A stretch of DNA of 28,750 nt from a virus, in IMG/VR virus record IMGVR_UViG_3300006927_000048, positions 1-28,750 of that record, one strand, 5' to 3'. Shown one piece after another: positions 4,857-25,763 of this stretch. The notes beneath the pieces are model-generated. The model saw nothing but the letters and a program-made list of their open reading frames with translations. It was not told the origin of the DNA and did not search any database. How positions within the stretch are numbered: position 1 is the first letter of the stretch; every line of letters begins with the position of its first letter. Made by a program: the position numbers and the translations under genes.

Positions 4857-6272
4857 ATGAACTTAATGGAATCACAATTTGAGAATGTAGAGAAGAAGTC
4901 TGCCCGTGAGGATATACTGGCGGATATGAATATCAGTAAGACCAAGATACCATTTATCATTAACCCAATGCAGAGGGGTAAGGACATACCCCAGCCAGAT
5001 AACCCCAAGCTTCAAGTGCAGGCATATGTGGATTGGGTCTATGTTTGTGTGAGTAGAAATTCTTCGGCAGTTGCCAATGCCCCATTGAGATTATTTGTTG
5101 CCAAGAAAGTACCGGGACGTAAACTTCAGGTTCCTACGAGAGCAGTGACGAAGGAGAAAAGAGATCGCCTGGAATCATTTGCTCATCTACAACCGTGGCT
5201 TTCAAAAGCAGTAGAGGTTGAGGAAGTGGTTGATCACCCGTTCCTTTTACTCATGCAGAATGTGAATGCTTTTATTAATCGGTTTGACTTGTGGGAACTG
5301 ACCCAAATTTATCTTGAGCTAACAGGGGATGCTTTTTGGTACATCGCTGATGATCCAACTTTGAAGATTCCTAGACAGATATGGGTACTGCCAAGTCAGA
5401 ACATGAAGATTGTTACAGATGATAAAACATTTGTTGGTGGGTATGTCTATGATATGGGGACGATCAAGATTCCGTTTGATATCCACGAGATCGTTCACTT
5501 TAAATTTGGATCTCCAACGAGTATGTTTTATGGCTATAGTCCTCTGGTTGCGGTCAGGAAAACATTTGTTATTGATCAGCAGGGGCAGGCATTTGAGGAA
5601 GCCTTGTTGAAGAACAATGCCGCGCCGGAAGGTGTACTGAGTACCGAACAGGAACTTGATGAGGAGGAGTTTGAAAGGATCAGGAAATTATGGAAGGCTC
5701 GGTATAGTGGGTTTGGTCGTCAGGGCAAAACCGTTGTCCTCTCATCCGGATTAAAGTATGAGAAGATAGCTTTCAGTCCCAAGGAGTTGGCATTTGAAAA
5801 GGGGAAGAAGTACAACAGGGAGATGATTGCTGCTGCCTTCGGTGTACCAATGAGCAAGATAGTTACCGAGAATGTTAACAAGGCGAATGCAGAGGCTGGT
5901 GAGAGACAATGGATTAAGGATACCATTGAGCCGAGGTTGACAAGGATCGAGGAGAAACTGAATGAGCAGGTGATACCTCGATATGATGAAAATCTGTTTG
6001 TTGCCTACGATGATCTGTTGCCTGAAGATACAGAACTGAAGATAAAGCAGAGAGAATCCCGATTGAAATATTTCTACTCCAGTATTAATCAGGAGAGAAA
6101 AAAGGATGGACTGGACGATGTTTCATGGGGTGACTTGCCACTTGGACAGGGTTTATGGTTGCCGGTCGGTACTGCTCCTCCCGAACAGGATGAAAATGTT
6201 ACTGCCGCGATTGCCCAACGTATTTACCAAAAGATTCAGGAGATACAGGGAAAGAAATCAGCAGGGTATTAA
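4857..6272 (+). CDS. Portal protein, HK97/phage_portal family
   Basis: Forms the dodecameric ring at the capsid vertex through which terminase pumps DNA. Family hallmarks in order: VYVCVSRNSSAVANAPLRLF (wing/crown entry, about 60-80), LLMQNVNAFINRFDLWELTQ, GDAFWYIADD, QIWVLPSQNMKIV, IVHFKFGSP...GYSPLVAVR, KNNAAPEGVL, then the stem/clip region with AFGVPMSKI. At 471 aa it is of usual length. The ATG at 4857 directly follows the TAA of the upstream gene and has GGAG about 12 nt upstream; a second ATG at 4866 is possible. Separated from terminase by about 3.3 kb of small genes, more than usual. Confidence 0.95.
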   Translation: MNLMESQFENVEKKSAREDILADMNISKTKIPFIINPMQRGKDIPQPDNPKLQVQAYVDWVYVCVSRNSSAVANAPLRLFVAKKVPGRKLQVPTRAVTKEKRDRLESFAHLQPWLSKAVEVEEVVDHPFLLLMQNVNAFINRFDLWELTQIYLELTGDAFWYIADDPTLKIPRQIWVLPSQNMKIVTDDKTFVGGYVYDMGTIKIPFDIHEIVHFKFGSPTSMFYGYSPLVAVRKTFVIDQQGQAFEEALLKNNAAPEGVLSTEQELDEEEFERIRKLWKARYSGFGRQGKTVVLSSGLKYEKIAFSPKELAFEKGKKYNREMIAAAFGVPMSKIVTENVNKANAEAGERQWIKDTIEPRLTRIEEKLNEQVIPRYDENLFVAYDDLLPEDTELKIKQRESRLKYFYSSINQERKKDGLDDVSWGDLPLGQGLWLPVGTAPPEQDENVTAAIAQRIYQKIQEIQGKKSAGY

Positions 6273-7226: not shown

Positions 7227-10200
7227 ATGAATCTTCAAACACAACAGCTGAATACCATTCAATACGATCTAGCGGGACTTCTGGCTATGGATCTGTGCCT
7301 TGATATTCTTCTGAAAGAGAATGAGAAGCTATCTCGTAGGGAGCAGATCAGATGGTGGATGGATTTCTTTAAAGCTAATATCGGAAATGCTGAAAAGTTT
7401 CGGAAAGTATTATCGAAGATGTTTCTTGATATGGGTAAGCAGATGTTGGGGAGGATGAAAAAGAGATTTGTATACGGAGATGCTAAAGGCACTTCGTATG
7501 AGGTAATGGTAACAAAAGATCAGTTTGATAATTGGATGTTCAGCAACAGGGAGTGGACGAAAAGATTAAGAGAGGAAGGTCAAGAGTTCATGAAGGAAGT
7601 CACTGCTGAGAACGGTGCTCGGACTATGGCTCAACTTCAGACCATAGTTGGAGGTGAGCAGGCAGAGTTTATTGGTTCTTTCGCTATAGATAACCCATTG
7701 ATGACCCAGTTCGTTGCAGAGAACAGTATCAAGCTTGCCAATAGCGTAATGAACTCAGCTGAGGAAAGAATTAGGAATGCTCTTGCGGTAGGGGTAGAGA
7801 ATGGAGAGAGTATTACTCAGTTAAGAAATCGGGTGAAGGACCAGTTTGAAAATATGTCAGATGTTAAGGCTCGGCAGATTGCGAGAACTGAAACTACACG
7901 GGCAGCAAATGAGGGAGCCATAGAGGCATACAAACAGAGCGGGGTTGTAACAGGTAAAGAATGGGTCACCGCACTTGACGAAAGGGTTTGTTTTCCTGCT
8001 GGTACAAGAGTACAGACAAAGAATAGTTCTGTTCCTATTCAGGATATTGAAGTTGGGGACAAAGTACTTACTCATAAAGATCGTTATAGAAAAGTAATAG
8101 GTTTAAAGAGAAGTAATTTTGTTGGGAAGTTTGTGAGAATTAATTTGGGGAATTCTCGTAGAGGTAAAGGATTAACTTGTACAGCAAATCATCCCATACT
8201 TGTTAATGGAGAATGGAAGAGAGCAGATAAAATTAAGCAGGGAGATAAGATAGTTTATATAGCTCATCCTTGCAGAGAGTGTAATACTTTAATTCCTATT
8301 GATAAAAAATATTGTTCTTATTCTTGTAATGCTCAGAATTCAAATAAAGTTAGATGGTCTGATCCAAAACAGAAAGAAAAACTTGCTGAGGATAATCGAA
8401 AATATAAGAAAACAAAAAAGATGAGAAAGGCTTTTGATATAAAATGGGAAGATGAAAAATTTCAGCAAGATTTCAAAGATAAGATTTCAAAGACGAACAA
8501 AGAAGTTTATAAAAAAGGTTCCCCTTCATGGAAGATGAAAGTGAAGCAGAATAGGGAACTTGCAAAGCAACCTGATTGGGGATGGAAAAATAAAGAAAGA
8601 CATGATGCTGCTTTAAAAATTGCTTTTATTAATAGAGGAAAAAATCATTTAGGCAATTCTTATCTTGAGAAAAAGGTCAGGTGGTTTTTGGAAAAGGAAA
8701 GCATAAATTTTGAACCTCAAAAATATTATAATAATGGTAAGAGGAGATTTTGGGTTGACTTTTTTCTTCCTGATTACAATATCATAATTGAGGCTGATGG
8801 TGATTATTTCCATACAGATATTAGTACTAGAAAAAGAGATAGAGAATTAAGTCAGGTTTTTACAGGACAGATATTACATTTTAAACAGAATGATATTATA
8901 AATAATTTTTCATCGTGCGCAATTAGATTAGAGGAAGCTATTGAACAACAGAGTTGCTTTATTGATATAGAAGTCAAGTCAGTAAAGAAATGGAAGGTGA
9001 GAAGGACTCAGCCGGTATATAATCTTGAGGTTGAGGAGGATCATAGTTATACGGCAAACAAGATTGTTGTTCACAATTGTCAATTCTGTCGTAAGATGGA
9101 TGGTAAGGTTTTTCCTCTTGATAACCCTTTTGCAAAAGAGGGCAGTACCGTTACTGGTGATCGAGGAGGTAAACTATCGATGGACTATGGTAATGTAAAT
9201 GGTCCTCCGATTCATCCATCGTGTAGGTGTACTTTGGTTCCGATGGTTGATACAGCATTGTTGGATGATATAGTTCCCTCTGGATCTGTTCCGATAGATC
9301 CTACAGCTGATTATAAAGAGCCGATGAAGATTTTTGAAACAAGGCTCAAGAAGGCAAAAGGCATAAGTGCTGCAGAAAGAAGAATATTAATAGAACAATA
9401 TAAACAAGCCGATAATGAATTGCAGCAGATTGTTGCCAGAGGACCGATTCCGAAAGGGGTTAAGAGAGATTTGCCTGATAGCAAAAATTCTTATTATCAC
9501 CCACAGGAAAAAGTTACTCATATGTCTCGCGTAACTGCAGACAGAACTTCAACACATGAGTATGGACATTTTCTTGATAATATGTTTTCTAAAAAACCAA
9601 ATAATTTTTTTGGTACCTCCCGATCAGCATGGTTTTCTAAAACAGGAGATTTTGGAAAAGAGATAAGGAAATTAAGCAAGGAGATAGTTAAAGAGACTAA
9701 AAAGGATTTAAAAAAGTGGAAGATATATAGTCAAAATAGATTAAAACAATTAAATAAAATGTCGGATACAAAATTGAGAGATACTCTTGTGAAGATGTCC
9801 GGACAAAATGCTTTCTATGATCCTGATGCGATAAGGGTTATTGGGGAATATATAAAAGTTTTTGGAGATAAGTTTGATGATACTACGAGAAAAGGAATTA
9901 AGAAATTTATTGTCAATACCGAATATGAGGGCAGGGTAGCTATCAGAGATTTGCAAAGGAATCTTGGGATAAATGATCGTTCTGCAAAAGATATTATTTC
10001 AGCTTTATCAAAAGGTGGTCAGTCTTCTGGGCATAGTATTGAATATTGGGCTACTACTCCTTATCAAGAACCAGAAATTTTTACTCAACTTATGAGTTTA
10101 ACAATAAATAATCGGGCTGAATACAATATACTTAAAAAACGATTCCCAAAATTGGTGAAGGGGTTTGAGGATAAAATAAAAGAAGCAAGAGTGATGGTAA

Positions 10201-11039
10201 ATAAACCGATCCGAGGTGGTCAAACAGGGGTCACTGCTCCGAAACCAACTCCTTCAACAGTACTTCCCACTTCAGATATATCTCAACTTACAAGCAATGT
10301 TTCTGTTGCAGAAAATTGGGGGAAGAAAAACGCTGATGAGATTTTTAATTTAGGAAATGCTGGCAATATAGAATTTCCAGAAACTGTGACAGGTAGGGCA
10401 AAATTATTAACGGAAGCAGCAGAGGATGTTGCAGTAATGGCAGAAAAGAAAATGTTATATAAAGAATTTTCTGAGGAAGCTATTAAATCTTTTAAAAGTT
10501 GGAGTAGTGCCAGTGGTCAAGGATTGGAAACTATAGGACAAAGTCCCATTATGTCAACGGCTATGAGTTATGCAAAGACAGGTAAATTTACTTATTCAAG
10601 CGATATGGGCGTTGTAGGAATGATGTCAAATGGATCAGCAGATCAATTACTTACTATGATTAATGCTTCAAGAAAAGTAACAGATGAAGTTTTAGAATTA
10701 TCTCATATAGCAGCAAGTGTTCAAAGGGAATGGTTAAAGAAACAGGGGGTAAAAGAATTTAAAGTATTTCGTGGAATGAATTCTATGAAAGCTGATGATA
10801 TAGCTACAATGAAGAAAACTAAACAAATAAAAGAAATGAATGGGACTTATTGGTCGACTGATGTAAACCATGCAGGTAGGTATGCTGTGGGGGATAGTCA
10901 TATACTTGTTGAAGCAACAATACCTATTGATGATGTGATGTGGTTTTATGGGGGACTTTCTACATTAGGACCAGAGTCGGGACTTGTTTCTACTGGAACA
11001 AAATTTAGAAAAATAAAAGTGTTGAGGGCATCTAAATGA
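7227..11039 (+). CDS. MuF (SPP1 gp7-like) minor head protein with intein, HExxH domain and ADP-ribosyltransferase-like domain
   Basis: Minor head morphogenesis protein, 1270 aa before splicing and 907 after. The N-terminal MuF domain shows ARQIARTETTRAANEGAIEA at about 215-234 and continues after an intein: DERV (to 254), intein 255-617, then CQFCRKMDGKVF (from 618) and HPSCRCTL (C666, C668), the usual Cys pairs. A second module carries STHEYGHFLDNM (HEYGH 777-781) with a candidate third ligand in YQEPEIF, a zincin-like layout. The C-terminus (about 1080-1270) resembles an R-S-E ADP-ribosyltransferase: VFRGM (R1182), YWSTD (S1210, T1211) and PESG (E1250) before a TGTKF strand. The usual second Glu of ExE appears as Gly, so activity is doubtful. 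Such MuF fusions are known as phage toxin or polyvalent virion-carried proteins. Stop overlaps the next ATG. Confidence 0.9.
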   Translation: MNLQTQQLNTIQYDLAGLLAMDLCLDILLKENEKLSRREQIRWWMDFFKANIGNAEKFRKVLSKMFLDMGKQMLGRMKKRFVYGDAKGTSYEVMVTKDQFDNWMFSNREWTKRLREEGQEFMKEVTAENGARTMAQLQTIVGGEQAEFIGSFAIDNPLMTQFVAENSIKLANSVMNSAEERIRNALAVGVENGESITQLRNRVKDQFENMSDVKARQIARTETTRAANEGAIEAYKQSGVVTGKEWVTALDERVCFPAGTRVQTKNSSVPIQDIEVGDKVLTHKDRYRKVIGLKRSNFVGKFVRINLGNSRRGKGLTCTANHPILVNGEWKRADKIKQGDKIVYIAHPCRECNTLIPIDKKYCSYSCNAQNSNKVRWSDPKQKEKLAEDNRKYKKTKKMRKAFDIKWEDEKFQQDFKDKISKTNKEVYKKGSPSWKMKVKQNRELAKQPDWGWKNKERHDAALKIAFINRGKNHLGNSYLEKKVRWFLEKESINFEPQKYYNNGKRRFWVDFFLPDYNIIIEADGDYFHTDISTRKRDRELSQVFTGQILHFKQNDIINNFSSCAIRLEEAIEQQSCFIDIEVKSVKKWKVRRTQPVYNLEVEEDHSYTANKIVVHNCQFCRKMDGKVFPLDNPFAKEGSTVTGDRGGKLSMDYGNVNGPPIHPSCRCTLVPMVDTALLDDIVPSGSVPIDPTADYKEPMKIFETRLKKAKGISAAERRILIEQYKQADNELQQIVARGPIPKGVKRDLPDSKNSYYHPQEKVTHMSRVTADRTSTHEYGHFLDNMFSKKPNNFFGTSRSAWFSKTGDFGKEIRKLSKEIVKETKKDLKKWKIYSQNRLKQLNKMSDTKLRDTLVKMSGQNAFYDPDAIRVIGEYIKVFGDKFDDTTRKGIKKFIVNTEYEGRVAIRDLQRNLGINDRSAKDIISALSKGGQSSGHSIEYWATTPYQEPEIFTQLMSLTINNRAEYNILKKRFPKLVKGFEDKIKEARVMVNKPIRGGQTGVTAPKPTPSTVLPTSDISQLTSNVSVAENWGKKNADEIFNLGNAGNIEFPETVTGRAKLLTEAAEDVAVMAEKKMLYKEFSEEAIKSFKSWSSASGQGLETIGQSPIMSTAMSYAKTGKFTYSSDMGVVGMMSNGSADQLLTMINASRKVTDEVLELSHIAASVQREWLKKQGVKEFKVFRGMNSMKADDIATMKKTKQIKEMNGTYWSTDVNHAGRYAVGDSHILVEATIPIDDVMWFYGGLSTLGPESGLVSTGTKFRKIKVLRASK
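7989..9077 (+). mobile_element. Intein (363 aa) with Vsr/EDxHD-like homing endonuclease, inserted in MuF
   Basis: Protein-splicing element. Block A starts at C255 (CFPAGTRVQT), block B is TANH (T319, H322), and blocks F/G are YNLEVEEDHSYTANKIVVHN ending His-Asn with Cys618 as the +1 nucleophile. Removal joins DERV to CQFCRKMDG, restoring an uninterrupted MuF motif, so boundaries are well supported. Between the Hint halves lie a Cys cluster (CREC...CSYSC, from 349), a basic helical segment with a WSDPKQKEKL stretch reminiscent of NUMOD3-type DNA-binding modules, and a nuclease core: D511 (WVDFFLPDYN), E522 and H529 (IIEADGDYFH). This resembles the Vsr/DUF559 fold and the EDxHD homing endonucleases rather than LAGLIDADG or HNH. 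All splicing residues are present, so it looks active. Confidence 0.92.
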
Positions 11040-11242
11040 CAGTTAAAAATAGACGAGCTATTTTTGTGAATGGTGGTATGGCAGAATTAGCCTGTGATCA
11101 TTGTAGACGTTTGAGTAAAAAAAATTGGAATAAGTGTAAGGCTTTTCCTGAAGGGATACCTCAAGATATTTTATCTGGAAGTATTGTTCATACGTTTCCT
11201 ATTAAGGGGGATCATGGATTACAATTTTCTTTTATTAGTTAA
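11036..11242 (+). CDS. Small CxxC protein coupled to MuF (68 aa)
   Basis: Contains CDHCRR, a further Cys, and KAFPEGIPQDILSGSIVHT followed by GDHGLQF. I recall the pattern C-x-AFPxGIPxxI...H...GDxG as recurrent in small phage proteins near MuF or ADP-ribosyltransferase genes; no function is established to my knowledge. The ATG overlaps the MuF stop, so its translation is tied to the MuF/ART product. A partner or immunity role for the ART-like domain is a hypothesis only. Confidence 0.75.
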   Translation: MTVKNRRAIFVNGGMAELACDHCRRLSKKNWNKCKAFPEGIPQDILSGSIVHTFPIKGDHGLQFSFIS

Positions 11243-11257
11243 TGGAGGGCAAAAGCA

Positions 11258-11449
11258 ATGGGTGAAATAATTTATGATGAAAGTTTGGATCAACTTCTCA
11301 GAATATATAGAAGGCAGTTTGGTGACATCCCAACACTTATTGGTTCTGGTCTGACCACCCAGCAGTTAAGAGATAAACTTGACAAGGCTTTCTTGACCTT
11401 CACCCCGATGGATATTGATAATGATGTGCCAAAAAATGCTGTGATATAG
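11258..11449 (+). CDS. Small hypothetical protein (63 aa)
   Basis: Not recognised. SD GGAGGGCAAA at 11244-11253, 4 nt before ATG. Predicted helical N-terminus (DESLDQLLRIYRRQFG) and a PTLIGSGLTTQQLRDKLDKA segment. No Cys. Its stop codon lies inside the SD repeat of the next gene. Confidence 0.68.
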   Translation: MGEIIYDESLDQLLRIYRRQFGDIPTLIGSGLTTQQLRDKLDKAFLTFTPMDIDNDVPKNAVI

Positions 11450-19971: not shown

Positions 19972-20370
19972 ATGCAGGAATTATTTACAGCAGTATATTC
20001 TAAATTCACAGCCGATTCCACTTTGTTTAATAGTGTCGACGGGAGGATGTATAATACTGAAGCAGAGAAAGGTCTGCAAGATGATTATATAGTCTTCTCC
20101 CTGCCGAGCGGGGTTCCTGAGTACTGGTTTAATGACGAGCAGGTTGACGATATTATAATTCAGTTTAATATCTTTTCCATAAAGAATGCAGATACGGATA
20201 TACAAACTATTTTTACAAATTTAAAAAATGTTTATAACAATACAACTTTGACTGTAAGTGGATATACATTCTTCAAAATGGAATTAATTTTTTATCAGCT
20301 TACTCGACCACCACTTGAGAATACTTATCAATACACAGTTCAGTATCTGGTGCAAATGGAAAAGAATTAA
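19972..20370 (+). CDS. Tail terminator / DUF3168-like protein (132 aa)
   Basis: Caps the tail tube and joins it to the neck. Family-like features are the N-terminal LFTAVYSKFTADSTLFNSVDGRMY helix-loop, YIVFSLPSG, a central VDDIIIQFNIFS strand, and a terminal YQYTVQYLVQM strand. Length and gene order (directly after gp10) support the call more than any single motif. Confidence 0.8.
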   Translation: MQELFTAVYSKFTADSTLFNSVDGRMYNTEAEKGLQDDYIVFSLPSGVPEYWFNDEQVDDIIIQFNIFSIKNADTDIQTIFTNLKNVYNNTTLTVSGYTFFKMELIFYQLTRPPLENTYQYTVQYLVQMEKN

Positions 20371-20392
20371 GGAGGGGGCAGAACCAAAAACT

Positions 20393-21163
20393 ATGTACCA
20401 ATTTTTTAGTTGTATAAGCAATGGACAAAAAAGAATATGGTATTTTGATGCCAAGATAAGAAAAGAAATAATCTCTAAAAATTCTGCTCTAGGAACTTTG
20501 GGAACAGACAGCCATTCCAGTATTGCAGATTATTTCAATCTTAATGAGGACCGAACAAATAAATATAAGTATAATCCACTAAGCAAAGAATTTAAGATCA
20601 ATCAATTAAATGTAAAAGATGATTCTGAAGCTGTTGAAAGACAATGCAGAAAATTAAATTTTTCTCTTATGATACCAGAATTAAAAATCAAGAAGATTAT
20701 TGATCCGTTAAAAATTAAAAGAAAATTAAAAACAGTCTCAAACAATGAAAAGGAACTATTACTACAATGGGCTTCTATTAGGAATTTTGCCAAGGCTTCC
20801 GTCAAGAATTCTATTAATACTATTGTTAGATATCATGTCGGGGATTCTATTTGGATAGCAATTAGAGAGTCTGTTGGTAATTCTGTTAGAGAATCTGTTG
20901 AGGCTTCCGTTAAGGAGTCTGTTGGGGAGTCTGTTGGGGAGTCTGTTGGGGAGTCTGTTGGTGATTCTGTCAGGGGTTATGTATCATCATTTTTCGTATT
21001 AAAGAATTGGAAATATATTAAGCATGGAGAAGGAGAAAATCCCTTTCAACCTTGTATTGATCTTTGGGAATCTGGACTTGTGCCTTCATTTGATGGAAGA
21101 AAATGGAGATTACATACGGGCAAAGATGCAAAGATAATTTATATTTGGGAACCAGAAAATTAA
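20393..21163 (+). CDS. Tetrapeptide-repeat (S-V-x-x) protein, 256 aa
   Basis: Function unknown. The N-terminal half is a mixed domain (YQFFSCISNGQKRIWYFDAK). Residues about 135-194 are 15 tandem four-residue units of the form x-S-V-x, perfect in the middle (ESVG four times). The conserved C-terminus reads PFQPCIDLWESGLVPSFDGR then KWRLHTGKDAK. I recall similar SV-repeat proteins ending in the same W-x-GLVPSFDG motif in phages and mobile elements, with no assigned role. The ATG at 20393 is about 18 nt downstream of an AGGAGGGGG SD, a long spacing with no better start in between. First gene of the AT-rich island. Confidence 0.75.
   Translation: MYQFFSCISNGQKRIWYFDAKIRKEIISKNSALGTLGTDSHSSIADYFNLNEDRTNKYKYNPLSKEFKINQLNVKDDSEAVERQCRKLNFSLMIPELKIKKIIDPLKIKRKLKTVSNNEKELLLQWASIRNFAKASVKNSINTIVRYHVGDSIWIAIRESVGNSVRESVEASVKESVGESVGESVGESVGDSVRGYVSSFFVLKNWKYIKHGEGENPFQPCIDLWESGLVPSFDGRKWRLHTGKDAKIIYIWEPEN
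20795..20974 (+). repeat. 12-bp tandem repeat array (15 units) encoding S-V-x-x
   Basis: Fifteen 12-base units, degenerate at the left and nearly perfect from 20915: three exact copies of GAGTCTGTTGGG (20915-20926, 20927-20938, 20939-20950) and a fourth with one change. The unit length keeps the reading frame, so slippage would alter repeat number without disrupting the gene. Confidence 0.9.
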
Positions 21164-21198: not shown

Positions 21199-21292
21199 AA
21201 ATTTTAAACTAATAGGATATAACCTTTTTGAGAAGATAATCGATTGGAGAGCGATTTAAGCAAGCAGGATCCTAAATTTAAGGAGGGCAATG

Positions 21293-21532
21293 ATGGTAGA
21301 TTCAAAGGTGATAAGAAAAAAAGTAACTGAATTAAATCTCGATATTAAAAATCGAGTAAAGAAATTTGAAATAGAGACGGGATGCTATGTTGACTTTATT
21401 AATGTTGATCATTTGGATGCATCGGAATTTGACGAGGAAGATCCATATATTTTAAAAGAGGTATCATCTCACATAGTATTAGATTTTAATAATACAGAGA
21501 TTGAGGAAGTTTCTACAGAGGAAGGAGATTAA
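21293..21532 (+). CDS. Small acidic hypothetical protein (79 aa)
   Basis: Not recognised. Basic helical start (DSKVIRKKVTELNLDIKNRVKKFEIETG) followed by a strongly acidic C-terminus. Two ATGs, 21290 and 21293, follow GGAGGGCAA (21282-21290); 21293 gives the better SD spacing (6 nt). No motif. Ends 3 nt before the next gene. Confidence 0.68.
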   Translation: MVDSKVIRKKVTELNLDIKNRVKKFEIETGCYVDFINVDHLDASEFDEEDPYILKEVSSHIVLDFNNTEIEEVSTEEGD

Positions 21533-21535
21533 TTT

Positions 21536-22039
21536 ATGAGAGCAACTGCAATAGAGTTTATGAGACGTTTCGTTGAGGAACATCTTAAAGGAAAAAAGAA
21601 TTTAAATGTTTTGGTGCTCAGTAAGGACTCTGAGGATCATAAAGAATTAGTTGAATTTTGTGGGCATACTTATCATTCCTCCCGAGCAGTGGAAGGGGAA
21701 GGGATACCAGTTGATGATAGTTCTTTCGATATAGTTGCGACAAGTTCTTTTTTCTATTCAACCAATAATCCAAATGTTGCCATTGCCCGTATTAACAGAC
21801 TTTTGAAGGATGAGGGATTGTTGTGTATTGTTACTCCTTCTACTGGATCTAAAATAAAAACATTTACTGTTGAATCTCTGAGTAAGTTGGTGGGCAAAGA
21901 ATTGGATATTTTATCTTGTGAACTTCCGAAGTATGGGGAGGGTCTAACAATATGGAATGATATAATGTGTGTTGCCATGAAGATCGATAAGAAAAAGAAG
22001 AAAAAGAAGAAAAATTCATCGGATGAGTTGGATGGTTGA
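21536..22039 (+). CDS. Degenerate methyltransferase-fold protein with poly-Lys C-terminus (167 aa)
   Basis: The middle matches a class I methyltransferase core: VDDSSFDIVATSSFFY (post-motif II to IV), then IARINRLLKDEGLLCIVTPS (motif V/VI region, the usual MLKPGG-like turn). The SAM-binding motif I expected near residues 24-32 (NVLVLSKDSED) lacks the GxGxG glycines, so catalysis is doubtful. Eight consecutive lysines lie near the C-terminus. The stop overlaps the following gene by 17 nt. Part of a methyl/glycosyl cassette. Confidence 0.65.
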   Translation: MRATAIEFMRRFVEEHLKGKKNLNVLVLSKDSEDHKELVEFCGHTYHSSRAVEGEGIPVDDSSFDIVATSSFFYSTNNPNVAIARINRLLKDEGLLCIVTPSTGSKIKTFTVESLSKLVGKELDILSCELPKYGEGLTIWNDIMCVAMKIDKKKKKKKKNSSDELDG

Positions 22040-22724
22040 ATGTGTTGTATATACTGCACTGACAGATAAATATTTTTTGAATAGTTTTTATCCGTCAAAG
22101 GATATTGACTACGTTGCATATATGGAAAATGGAACAGAGCTTAAATCTCCCTGGCAGAAAAAGAAATTAGAAAGGAAAGGGCATCCGAAAGTTGATACAG
22201 CCAGATATAAAATGCTCCCACATAAATACTTTAATTGTGAGTACAGTGTCTGGTTGGACAGCATGATCGTTCCAAAGAGAGGACCATTGCTTGAGGCTGT
22301 TAAACATATTTTAAAAAATGGCGATATTGCCTTTTGGATGCACCCAGTCAGACGGTGTATTTATGAAGAATCACTTGCGATAGTTGAAAATAAGAAATAT
22401 AAAAATAATATAGAAATAATTTACGATCAGATAAATAGGTATGCAGAGGAAGGGATGCCGAGGGACTTTGGAATATTTGCTGGTGGTATTGTTATTAGGA
22501 GACATACTAAAGAGATAAATGAATTTGGAGAATACTGGTATGATGAATATTTAAAGGGAAGTAAGAATGATCAACTGAGTTTAGCATATACAGCATGGAA
22601 GACTCAATTACCTGTAGTGAGGGTAAATCGGGGGATAGTTCATCAGAATGATTTTTTTCATTATGTGGGAGGAAAGATTATAGTTAAGAATGGGGAAACA
22701 TGGTGGGTTGGAAGAGAACAATAA
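22023..22724 (+). CDS. DUF616-like (TOD1/MUCI70) glycosyltransferase-like protein
   Basis: VVYTALTDKYFLNSFYPSKD near the start, SPWQ, and ARYKMLPHKYFNCEYSVWLD with SMIVPKRGP are the DUF616 hallmarks, where a YxxSxWLD segment supplies the acidic residue of the GT-A-like site. IAFWMHPVRRCIYEE and a late NDQLSLAYTAWK also fit. 233 aa. An alternative start is ATG 22032; both overlap the preceding gene. Probably transfers a sugar to a phage or host surface molecule; donor and acceptor unknown. Confidence 0.72.
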   Translation: MSWMVECVVYTALTDKYFLNSFYPSKDIDYVAYMENGTELKSPWQKKKLERKGHPKVDTARYKMLPHKYFNCEYSVWLDSMIVPKRGPLLEAVKHILKNGDIAFWMHPVRRCIYEESLAIVENKKYKNNIEIIYDQINRYAEEGMPRDFGIFAGGIVIRRHTKEINEFGEYWYDEYLKGSKNDQLSLAYTAWKTQLPVVRVNRGIVHQNDFFHYVGGKIIVKNGETWWVGREQ

Positions 22725-22743
22725 ACTAGGGAGGGTAAATATA

Positions 22744-23223
22744 ATGAGTATTGAAAATCCTGTAAAATTAAATTTGGGATGTGGATACAGAAAAAAAGAA
22801 GACTTCGTTAATATTGATTATAACCCTAAGTGTGATCCAGATGTTCAATTAGACATTGTTTCTTTTGGGTTGAATATGTGGGAAGATAACTCTGTTGATG
22901 AAGTAAGGGCATGGGATTTTCTTGAACACGTTCCACTTGGCAAAACAATATTCGTCATCGAGGAAATTTTTAGAGTGCTGAGGCATGACGGAAAGTTTGA
23001 ACACTTCACTCCTAGTACAGATGGTAGGGGGGCTTTTCAAGATCCAACTCATTTGAGTTTTTGGAATATTAACAGTTGGATTTACTATACTGATGATGAG
23101 CATAGAAAGCTGTATGGAATTAAAGCAAAGTTTAAAGGATTTAGGGAAGACTTGGTTACGGACAAAGCAAATAAAATTATACATACTCACGGAGTATTTT
23201 TTGCAGTAAAGGAATCTAAATGA
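22744..23223 (+). CDS. SAM-dependent methyltransferase, class I (159 aa)
   Basis: Motif I is complete: VKLNLGCGYRKKEDFVNIDY (residues 7-26). Then come DVQLDIVS, DEVRAWDFLEHVP (motif IV-like) and EEIFRVLRHDGKFEHFTPS (LKPGG-like turn). The FQDPTH...FW segment resembles methyltransferases in polysaccharide clusters. The start at 22744 is set by GGAGGGTAAA (22730-22739); upstream in-frame codons overlap the DUF616 gene. Substrate likely a sugar or small molecule rather than DNA, by context. Confidence 0.82.
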   Translation: MSIENPVKLNLGCGYRKKEDFVNIDYNPKCDPDVQLDIVSFGLNMWEDNSVDEVRAWDFLEHVPLGKTIFVIEEIFRVLRHDGKFEHFTPSTDGRGAFQDPTHLSFWNINSWIYYTDDEHRKLYGIKAKFKGFREDLVTDKANKIIHTHGVFFAVKESK

Positions 23224-23927
23224 TCCCAGTACTTTATACCACATGGAATAGGTTGGATTATACAAAGCAGACTTTACCTGTTCTACTTGAGACTACTCAT
23301 GATGGTGAAATTATTATTATCGATAATGGTTCAATGGATGGTACGGATGCATTTCTTTATAAATTTAGGAGTCATAGAAAAATAAAAAAGATTATTTTTA
23401 ATAATGAGAATAAGGGAATTGGTGGGGCTATGAATCAGTTCCTAGAATTGACAAAGGATAATGAATTTATTGCGAAGGTTGATGATGATACTATAGTCCC
23501 GACTAACTGGTTAAATGATTTACTTGATCCTTTAATTGGTCTTGATCGAGATGCTGTACAGGCTAATCATTATTTCTTTATACAGGGTATTTATAATTGG
23601 GAACATCTTAAAAGGGAGAAAGGATTTATTAAGTTTGGTCTAAATCATTTTGTTCCAATTCTAATTGGGGCTAGTGGCACGGTGTTTAAAAGGAATATAT
23701 TTGATGTTCCTATTGAGTATGAAACACACTCTTTATTTGGCTGGAGTCAATATCAATCAATAATAAAGAAAGGAAAACTAAAAACAGGATTATATGATGG
23801 AGTATGGATTGAGCTTCTGGATATGAAGGGGGTTAATGCTTGGGATGAAACTTCAGGACATATGTCATATAGAAAATTAACTGGAAGATTCATAGAGAGG
23901 GCAGACTATTATGAAGCAAGAGGATAG
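23220..23927 (+). CDS. GT2-family glycosyltransferase (GT-A fold)
   Basis: 235 aa. N-terminal IPVLYTTWNRLDYTKQTLPV, IIIIDNGSMDGT, NENKGIGGAMNQ and the metal-binding AKVDDDTIVP (D88-D90) form the GT-A nucleotide-sugar site. The remainder (LIGASGTVFKR, ETHSLFGWSQ) matches the acceptor half of GT2 enzymes. No membrane segment, so cytoplasmic. ATGA overlap with the methyltransferase and a 17-nt overlap with the next gene indicate coupled expression. Acceptor unknown. Confidence 0.87.
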   Translation: MIPVLYTTWNRLDYTKQTLPVLLETTHDGEIIIIDNGSMDGTDAFLYKFRSHRKIKKIIFNNENKGIGGAMNQFLELTKDNEFIAKVDDDTIVPTNWLNDLLDPLIGLDRDAVQANHYFFIQGIYNWEHLKREKGFIKFGLNHFVPILIGASGTVFKRNIFDVPIEYETHSLFGWSQYQSIIKKGKLKTGLYDGVWIELLDMKGVNAWDETSGHMSYRKLTGRFIERADYYEARG

Positions 23928-25290
23928 AAAGGTATCAATAATTATACCAGTAATTAGAAAAGAAAATGTAAAAAAGTTAGTAGATACAATTTATGCTAAC
24001 GCTGGAATACCAAAAGAGAATATTTCTGTATATGCTGAAGCGGATGAGGAGAGAATTGGTTGTCCGAAAATGATAAAGACTATGACAGACAAAGTAATAG
24101 AGATGCATAATCATCCATATATATGTTTTCTTGGTGATGACACTTTGCCGGAAAAAAATTTTTTAAAAATAGCATTTGAGTCTATGGAAATGTTTGATGC
24201 GAATTGGGGATTGGTTGGACTAAATGATAATTATGATGAGGTTGATGGAAACCTTAATGCAACTCATTGGATAGCACATAGAAGGTTGTTGCCATTTCTC
24301 GATGATGAGTTTTTTCATACTGGGTATGTTCATTCTTTTTGTGATAATGAGTTGACTGATAGGTGTAAAGAAATAGGTAGGTATATATTTGCGCCTGATG
24401 CAAAAGTTAAACACATTAATCCTATAGTTGATAAAACTGTTCCTTGGGATGATGATTACAAGTGGGCATATTCTCCTGCTAATTCTGCAAGGGATAATGC
24501 TCTGTACATCCAGAGAAAAAATAATAGAAATAGAATATCAGAAGATTTTAAATTGGGAATTGCTTTCCCTATTACAGATGAAAAAGTGCATACATCTTTT
24601 TTCATAAGTTACATTACAATGGAAAAACCAGAGGAATATACTTTACTTATCCCAAAGTGGCCGGGACAGATTGATGCGATTAGGGATAACCTTGTAGAAC
24701 AGGCTTTAATTGAAGGCGTGACTCATATGATTATGATGGATACTGATCAGATTTATCCTGTTGATACAATTATAAAACTTTTGAAGAACAGGGATAAGGA
24801 TGTGGTGGCCGTGCCTGTTCATAGAAGGTATCCGCCGTATGATCCAATAGTATTAAAACATAATCCAAAATCTGATAGGTATTGGCACATTCCTGATAAA
24901 GAGGTTTATAGTGGAGAGTTGATTGAGGCTGATGCAATAGGAACTGGTTGTATGATGTTCGATACCAGATGCTTTATGGATACTCCAAGACCGTGGTTTA
25001 AGATCGATGGGAAAAGAGATGGGACACACATTGGTGAAGATGTGTTCTTTTGCAGGAACATGAAAAAAGCCGGAAAGAGAATATGGGTGGATACTTCCAT
25101 TGAAATTGGTCACATAGCACAGATGGAAGTGGCTAGACCATTGTATGAATTGTATAAGCGGTATAGAAAGTTCGGGTGGGTGAAGCCACCTGATTTAAAT
25201 AAAAGGGAAAATCTTGAACCCGCATCACTGGGCATTGTCGAGGAGGCTGAGGTTGGTCAGGATAATGTAGAAGTTGTGAATGATTCATAA
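23911..25290 (+). CDS. Tandem glycosyltransferase (two GT-A domains), 459 aa
   Basis: First domain (about 1-215): VSIIIPVIRKENVKKLVDTI, ISVYAEADEERIG, and CFLGDDTLPEKNF (D76, D77). Second domain (about 220-430): a Rossmann-type start around TLLIPKWPGQIDAIRDNLVE, MMDTDQIYPVDTI with DTD at 277-279, and IGTGCMMFDTRCF then GEDVFFCRNMKKAG, the typical acceptor-side GEDxxF motif. A disordered acidic tail follows. Either the two domains act in sequence or one is non-catalytic. Ends 20 nt before the tail tube gene. Confidence 0.85.
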   Translation: MKQEDRKVSIIIPVIRKENVKKLVDTIYANAGIPKENISVYAEADEERIGCPKMIKTMTDKVIEMHNHPYICFLGDDTLPEKNFLKIAFESMEMFDANWGLVGLNDNYDEVDGNLNATHWIAHRRLLPFLDDEFFHTGYVHSFCDNELTDRCKEIGRYIFAPDAKVKHINPIVDKTVPWDDDYKWAYSPANSARDNALYIQRKNNRNRISEDFKLGIAFPITDEKVHTSFFISYITMEKPEEYTLLIPKWPGQIDAIRDNLVEQALIEGVTHMIMMDTDQIYPVDTIIKLLKNRDKDVVAVPVHRRYPPYDPIVLKHNPKSDRYWHIPDKEVYSGELIEADAIGTGCMMFDTRCFMDTPRPWFKIDGKRDGTHIGEDVFFCRNMKKAGKRIWVDTSIEIGHIAQMEVARPLYELYKRYRKFGWVKPPDLNKRENLEPASLGIVEEAEVGQDNVEVVNDS

Positions 25291-25310: not shown

Positions 25311-25763
25311 ATGGGAAAAAAAATTGGAAAGGATTGTCAGGTATCTGTTGGTGCAAATAAAGTTGTCGGTATGGGAACATGGACGATGGATGGTATTACA
25401 GCCGATCAGATGGAAGCAACGGAATTCAATGATGATTGGAAAAGTTTTGAGTTTGGAGCGAAGGATGGTGGTACGGTAACATTTAGTGGTCTGTTTGATC
25501 CAGAAGATGCTACAGGGCAGGATCTGCTAATGAGGGCTAATATGGATAATACTGATATCACAAGCCTGAGACTGTACACAGATGACACAAGTTACTTTGA
25601 GCCGTGTCAGACAACTCAGTGGTGGTCAGGAACTTCAACTACCGGAGAGGCAACTGTCTATAGCTGGGTGAATATTACTTCGGTAAATATTGGCGCAGAT
25701 AAAGCAGCATTGATGACTATTGATTTTACAGCCAAGGTGAGTGGTTTACTCGTACATGTGTAA
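25311..25763 (+). CDS. Major tail (tube) protein
   Basis: 150 aa, beta-rich, of the compact siphovirus tube type: MGKKIGKDCQVSVGANKVVG start, MEATEFNDDWKSFEFGAKDGG (the domain where tube proteins carry T/EFDD...), VTFSGLFDPEDATGQDLLM, and a terminal ALMTIDFTAKVSGLL strand. Position immediately before the G/GT chaperone pair and tape measure gene is the canonical tail gene order. AAGGAG SD at 25295-25300. Confidence 0.9.
   Translation: MGKKIGKDCQVSVGANKVVGMGTWTMDGITADQMEATEFNDDWKSFEFGAKDGGTVTFSGLFDPEDATGQDLLMRANMDNTDITSLRLYTDDTSYFEPCQTTQWWSGTSTTGEATVYSWVNITSVNIGADKAALMTIDFTAKVSGLLVHV

Follow-up and report, generated by a model that had tools for sequence, protein, structure and literature searches.

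Tandem-repeat proteins whose units have been homogenised are already known as a general kind. TALE repeats are 33-35 residues long, fold as two helices and carry a diresidue that specifies a base; the pentapeptide repeat has a five-residue period and forms a beta-helix. The array that we describe here, a run of four-residue SVxx units in a phage protein, resembles both. Like TALE-type proteins, it consists of near-identical repeats that differ at few positions, and like pentapeptide-repeat proteins it has a short, strict period in which one hydrophobic position is fixed. It departs from the former in its four-residue unit and in the lack of any PDB sequence or fold match for the protein, and from the latter in its period of four, its helical prediction and the lack of a Pfam match. 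The main text of two tandem-repeat surveys mentions neither tetrapeptide repeats nor DUFs (PMC5472282; PMC11417379), and in one of them 95.6% of the protein tandem repeats catalogued belong to no known family (PMC11417379).

Two further groups are also similar. DUF6745 (PF20530) proteins have an SV[WGR][DA] array set between N- and C-terminal domains, as the present family does, but both of those domains differ. Members of phrog_8332 (Clavibacter phage CN1A gp10, Propionibacterium phage E6 gp39) share the order of N-terminal domain, period-4 array and C-terminal segment. Their N-terminal domain is akin to one of the two types found in the family (YKLxRPDG), whereas that of the protein studied here is unrelated to it except in the linker; their units are AA[RWL][DNG] rather than SVxx, and the GLVPSFDG C-terminal domain of the family was not seen in them. 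Our protein belongs to neither group: it has no Pfam match above the cut-off, and the phrog_8332 profile is absent from its PHROG matches. A literature search returned no description of the family, of its two mixed positions or of the sharing of such arrays across unrelated proteins; SVWDSV and DUF6745 gave no match, and AAWDAA appeared only in unrelated genetics work. The analysis establishes a previously undescribed family of proteins, nearly all of them from uncultivated phages, and connects it with the four-residue arrays of unrelated proteins (DUF6745, phrog_8332) as parts of a broader class.

The array gene and its protein

The window, that is, the whole stretch of DNA analysed, is a virus record of 28,750 bases. 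Its array gene and the surrounding features are collected in the table.

Table. Features of the array gene and its neighbours in the window.
Feature	Coordinates	Strand	Evidence
Tail terminator gene, directly upstream of the array gene	19972..20370	+	phrog_176, E 2.9e-5
Whole array gene, 256 aa	20393..21163	+	ORF and translation; ATG start aligned with MCxFFS starts of relatives
N-terminal alpha/beta domain, aa 1-126 (MYQFFS...DSHSSIADYF...)	20393..20770	+	Alignments; AF2 pLDDT mostly >90
Decayed, helix-predicted array start, about six units	20795..20869	+	Sequence; AF2 helices
Nine perfect SVxx units, 12-bp period, consensus TCTGTTGGGGAG	20870..20977	+	TRF; shuffles; lag-4 autocorrelation
Conserved C-terminal domain, aa 196-256 (YVSSFF..WKYIKHGEGENPFQPCIDLWESGLVPSFDGRKWRLHTGKDAKIIYIWEPEN)	20978..21160	+	>100 IMG/VR loci; invariant columns; AF2
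Remaining cargo block: 80-aa ORF, methyltransferase-like ORFs (assigned by weak match or by eye), glycosyltransferases	21290..25290	+	phrog_26101, E 1.9e-21; phrog_841, E 2.3e-7
Major tail protein, where tail genes resume	25311..25763	+	phrog_158, E 7.3e-6

An AAGGAGG precedes the start codon at 20369-20375, at a long spacing of 17 nt. The N-terminal domain ends in a conserved linker, IDPL...NEKELLLQW, which is also present in relatives whose N-terminal domain is unrelated. The stretch at 20795-20974 is in frame with the gene and translates as ASVKNSINTIVRYHVGDSIWIAIRESVGNSVRESVEASVKESVGESVGESVGESVGDSVR, fifteen tetrads, just as the sequence-only reading had placed and counted them. The repeat is real: TRF reports a period of 12 with 8.7 copies (score 110), and residue identity within the protein is 25 at lag 4 versus 0-3 at lags 1-3 and 5-7. 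The longest SVxx run in 20,000 residue shuffles was 3, reached once, against 9 in the protein itself. The near-perfect copies that had been described as central do exist, but they are the C-terminal ones, the first six units being decayed. The distinctive tail PFQPCIDLWESGLVPSFDG, also pointed out at that stage, is present and belongs to the conserved C-terminal domain. The protein was rightly called unassigned, as it has no family match at a meaningful level: searches of Pfam and NCBIfam gave none, and those of PHROG and PDB gave weak matches only (best E 0.02 and 0.04, respectively). At position 2 (20393-20401, MYQFFS) the protein has a Tyr where relatives of the MCxFFS type have a nearly invariant Cys; to judge from the alignment, this copy may have lost Cys2, if that residue matters.

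AF2 modelling of the window protein from a 38-sequence alignment gave a pLDDT of 89 and a pTM of 0.84. The N-terminal domain is predicted to be mixed alpha/beta and the C-terminal domain to comprise one helix and three strands; the array region is modelled as helices at 117-148, 151-177 and 179-200, with a pLDDT over the array of 75-94. AF2 did not resolve the array of a phage DUF6745 protein that has 32 clean units (pLDDT about 30). Fold searches with both models gave no match at E <= 0.001. Val, Ser and Gly are poor helix formers, and this, together with the low pLDDT, makes a helix insecure for clean arrays. Structure prediction had been proposed as a check on the suggestion that the array forms a regular helix or a solenoid. 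Of these two the helix fares better, and the solenoid is unsupported. A helix is the best supported reading for the window protein, on the strength of the model, and is not settled for clean arrays.

A phage family and its shared array

Three viral scans identified far more than 100 loci with relatives; many of these overlap or lie on one and the same contig. The family counts over 60 distinct proteins, of which nearly all stem from uncultivated phages, and the array and the C-terminal motif occur together in 75 distinct ORF fragments. The family consensus had no match in 50,697 GenBank phages and 72,556 PLSDB plasmids, and bacterial and archaeal genomes added only two members (L078 and L079). 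All members share the C-terminal domain, with the core LW..GLVPSFDG..WRLH (GLVPSFDGxxWRLH) and the invariant columns Y, LW, G, P, G and W.L, which the window protein also has. All likewise have a linker of the form NPF...T..I.LLK.W before the array. An in-frame SVxx array lies between linker and C-terminal domain, nine perfect units long in the window protein; across the family it ranges from 4 to 26 units, mostly 11-26. The N-terminal domains fall into two unrelated groups that share only the linker. In profile comparison, the variants MCxFFS and MCxAFSC of one group score 98.9% with each other and the variants YKLxRPDG and LYKVL of the other 98.2%. Homology of the C-terminal domain to DUF6745 was rejected by the same kind of comparison (0.4%), and weak tape-measure PHROG matches (E 0.001-0.02) were judged compositional.

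One phage (L117) has two genes, one from each N-domain group, and tandem paralogues occur elsewhere, three in L041 and in L090 and two in L031. Some relatives (L076, L103) have an ordinary, non-repetitive segment at the array site, implying that the array corresponds to this normal segment in repetitive form.

Similar arrays occur in other proteins. DUF6745 proteins of phages and bacteria carry SV[WGR][DA] arrays of up to 70 units; the bacterial hosts include Mycobacterium parascrofulaceum, Xenococcus PCC 7305 and Alistipes sp. dk3624 (a complete genome), and further cases come from MAGs, Chloroflexi and others. In Mycobacterium DUF6745 is rare, with 2 of 118 genomes over the cut-off. Cyanobacterial DUF6745 proteins have QLxS tetrads or non-repetitive, helical-looking segments. 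In cultured phages of Clavibacter and Propionibacterium, phrog_8332 proteins combine a related N-terminal domain with Ala-rich AA[RWL][DNG] tetrads; L043, of the YKLxRPDG type, matches this profile at E 3.4e-8. In several Propionibacterium phages the phrog_8332 gene lies just upstream of RecE/RecT. One phage DUF6745 gene (L192, about 10856-11347, minus strand) has GFGPGFGR repeats in another frame before the SVxx array resumes, which looks like a putative frameshift inside the array.

Copying and reshuffling of the units

Over 106 arrays (1,179 units), the third residue is chiefly W (440), G (333) or R (325) and the fourth D (536) or A (432). K, E, M, V, L, S and T are rare at these positions, though one base away. 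The same few residues prevail whichever silent codons an array uses, and in unrelated proteins as well. In arrays with at least six units, the units deviate from their array's consensus in 0-3% of cases at bases 1-6 and 12 and in 5-10% at bases 8-10, against 47% at base 7 and 35% at base 11. In the window's short, partly decayed array, represented in this comparison by the record L001, several positions per unit vary. The pattern shown by these data is a conserved Ser-Val with two positions per unit that remain mixed, chiefly between W, G and R at one and D and A at the other; we infer that selection maintains the mixture.

Silent sites point to copying of whole units. The Ser-Val hexamers are at least 95% identical within 63 of 76 arrays, and codon choice differs between arrays, the frequent TCGGTC arrays partly reflecting the scan pattern used to find loci. 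Gly is encoded by GGG in 98% of array units versus 26% in the remainder of the same ORFs, and the free third-position A of TCA-Ser arrays is almost unchanged. Arg within an array is AGG or CGG, and none of the 65 arrays with two or more such codons contains both (log10 P = -35.1 for independent draws). Because the two codons are synonymous and never mixed, this shows that each residue variant had a single origin and then spread by copying, which argues against recurrent or targeted mutation. The codon signature, units copied with the amino-acid mixture kept, makes the role of a variable phage array testable, and laboratory systems are ready at hand in the cultured Propionibacterium phages with Ala-type arrays and the Alistipes isolates with reshuffled ones. 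In L117, the genes at 5320-6159 and 8159-8938, whose N-terminal domains are unrelated, have arrays that share unusual TCTGTG Ser-Val codons; these codons suggest that array units may have been exchanged between the two.

We also compared arrays between close relatives. L019 and L020 have 18 and 14 units, with identical flanks within the ORF (402/402 and 201/201 bp; 603/603 together). In one phage DUF6745 protein the array numbers 32 units in L141 and L190 but 28 in L189, and 2136/2137 bp upstream are identical. L027 and L029 differ in one unit, GD to GA. In Alistipes, L085/L177 and L137 are identical at 2999/3000 upstream and 2985/3000 downstream positions and have 52 units each, in which shared blocks are rearranged; the L137 array has unit types (RD, MD, SIRA) missing from the other. 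Many near-clonal pairs have identical arrays, the window's included: it shares one array with L001 (12,183/12,183 bp) and L002 (one mismatch in 7,645).

Comparison of repeat number across relatives thus gave a divided answer, with differences in some pairs that have near-identical flanks and identity in many near-clonal ones. The sequence-only reading had predicted that unit number can change by slippage without loss of frame. Frame-preserving change is borne out among relatives, which differ by whole 12-bp units; in 40 of 48 proteins the distance between the linker Trp and the Tyr that follows the array equals 1 mod 4, and a few arrays tolerate slips of one or two residues. The window's own lineage does not show the predicted length variation, the three near-clonal records being alike. 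Slippage as the sole process is not supported either: the Alistipes arrays hold 52 units and yet are reshuffled. In addition, 32 of the 37 arrays tested have a statistically random order of units, whereas plain slippage should leave local order. Local slippage can therefore be only part of the explanation, and units have probably also undergone unequal recombination or conversion. The equal count of 52 in two strongly differing arrays may hint at a length constraint. Array sequence is found at each end of several IMG/VR contigs (L131/L144, L146/L166, L149/L162, L135/L152), the pattern that a circular genome would give if its assembly had broken within the array.

Proposed role, alternatives and genomic setting

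We propose, with moderate confidence, that the protein consists of two end domains and a helical array of copied 12-bp units that acts as an adjustable arm, encoded in accessory phage cargo. A helical segment joining two conserved end domains would have become a tandem array. As the data show, whole units are copied by unequal recombination or slippage, so that silent sites become uniform, the frame is preserved and the number and order of units change; selection would keep Ser-Val together with the W/G/R and D/A mixture. Arm length and side-chain pattern could then tune the spacing or binding of the end domains, with recombination adjusting both length and surface, and the product would serve as an adjustable helical spacer or binding surface. 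Support for a helix comes from the related segments of L076 and L103, which lack a repeat, from those of cyanobacterial DUF6745 proteins, which look helical, and from the AA[RWL][DNG] tetrads of cultured-phage homologues of one N-domain type.

The array might instead be a neutral, low-complexity linker in which unit number and residues drift, the composition need only be compatible with a helix and the mixture at the two positions is just tolerated. The wide range of array lengths, the few out-of-step arrays and the retention of both end domains in relatives with a degenerate array or none (L076, L094, L103) speak for drift; against it, W, G, R and D, A dominate regardless of silent codons and host protein, and whole-unit copying under drift should homogenise the two mixed bases like the others. 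We consider it unlikely, though with an appreciable chance of being right. Modular recognition of the TALE kind, with two variable residues per unit reading part of a target and reshuffling changing that target, would fit the constant scaffold, the random-looking order, the reshuffling by recombination and the nucleic-acid genes (RecE/RecT, SSB, RuvC) that adjoin some relatives. Four residues are, however, too short for an autonomous TALE-type helical repeat, searches with the window protein matched neither a DNA-binding family nor a fold, and neighbourhoods are not conserved, making this reading improbable. A broader version, that the arrays are a recognition or tuning code of about three by two residues per unit, rewritten by recombination of 12-bp units, is a similarly long shot; if true, the code serves unrelated phage and bacterial proteins.

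A beta-solenoid like that of pentapeptide-repeat proteins is quite improbable: the strict short period, the beta-branched Val in each unit and the failure of AF2 to resolve a clean array would suit it, but the period is 4 and not 5, AF2 predicts helices for the window protein and homologous segments are Ala-rich tetrads in cultured phages and QLxS or non-repetitive, helical-looking stretches in cyanobacteria. Assembly deserves more care: the arrays, which exceed short read lengths, were for the most part assembled from short-read metagenomes, and many contigs stop within one, so that some array differences may be errors. It is nevertheless very improbable that artefacts explain the differences between near-identical genomes: in the Alistipes pair, one member (dk3624) is represented by a complete genome and the other by an IMG genome record, not by a metagenome bin, their arrays share blocks yet hold different unit types, and unit types differ systematically between phages. 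Least credible of all is hypermutation targeted to bases 7 and 11 by a diversity-generating retroelement or similar system. Variation is indeed concentrated at two of twelve bases, but random mutation of base 7 would mix AGG with CGG, and a search of 24 relative records, one of which (L001) carries the window's gene, gave no reverse transcriptase (RVT_1). On these grounds, and because TCA codons stay unchanged, we rejected a retroelement or adenine-targeted mutagenesis as the source of the variation.

The adjustable-arm proposal places the gene in accessory cargo. In the window, it opens the cargo block that lies between tail terminator and tail protein, in agreement with the earlier suggestion that it heads an accessory island. 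This position and the unconserved neighbours among relatives fit an accessory role; a search of the relatives' loci for a conserved operon partner found none, with only SSB recurring, in five loci. Elsewhere in the window, a short AAGAAAAAG repeat at 21989-22014 encodes the lysine-rich tail of the methyltransferase-like ORF at 21536-22039. The MuF-type minor head protein (7227-11039) has an apparent intein with an HNH-type endonuclease; the putative intein block starts with CFPAGTRVQTKN and ends with VVHNC, with head-morphogenesis profiles flanking it on both sides and the endonuclease matches inside.
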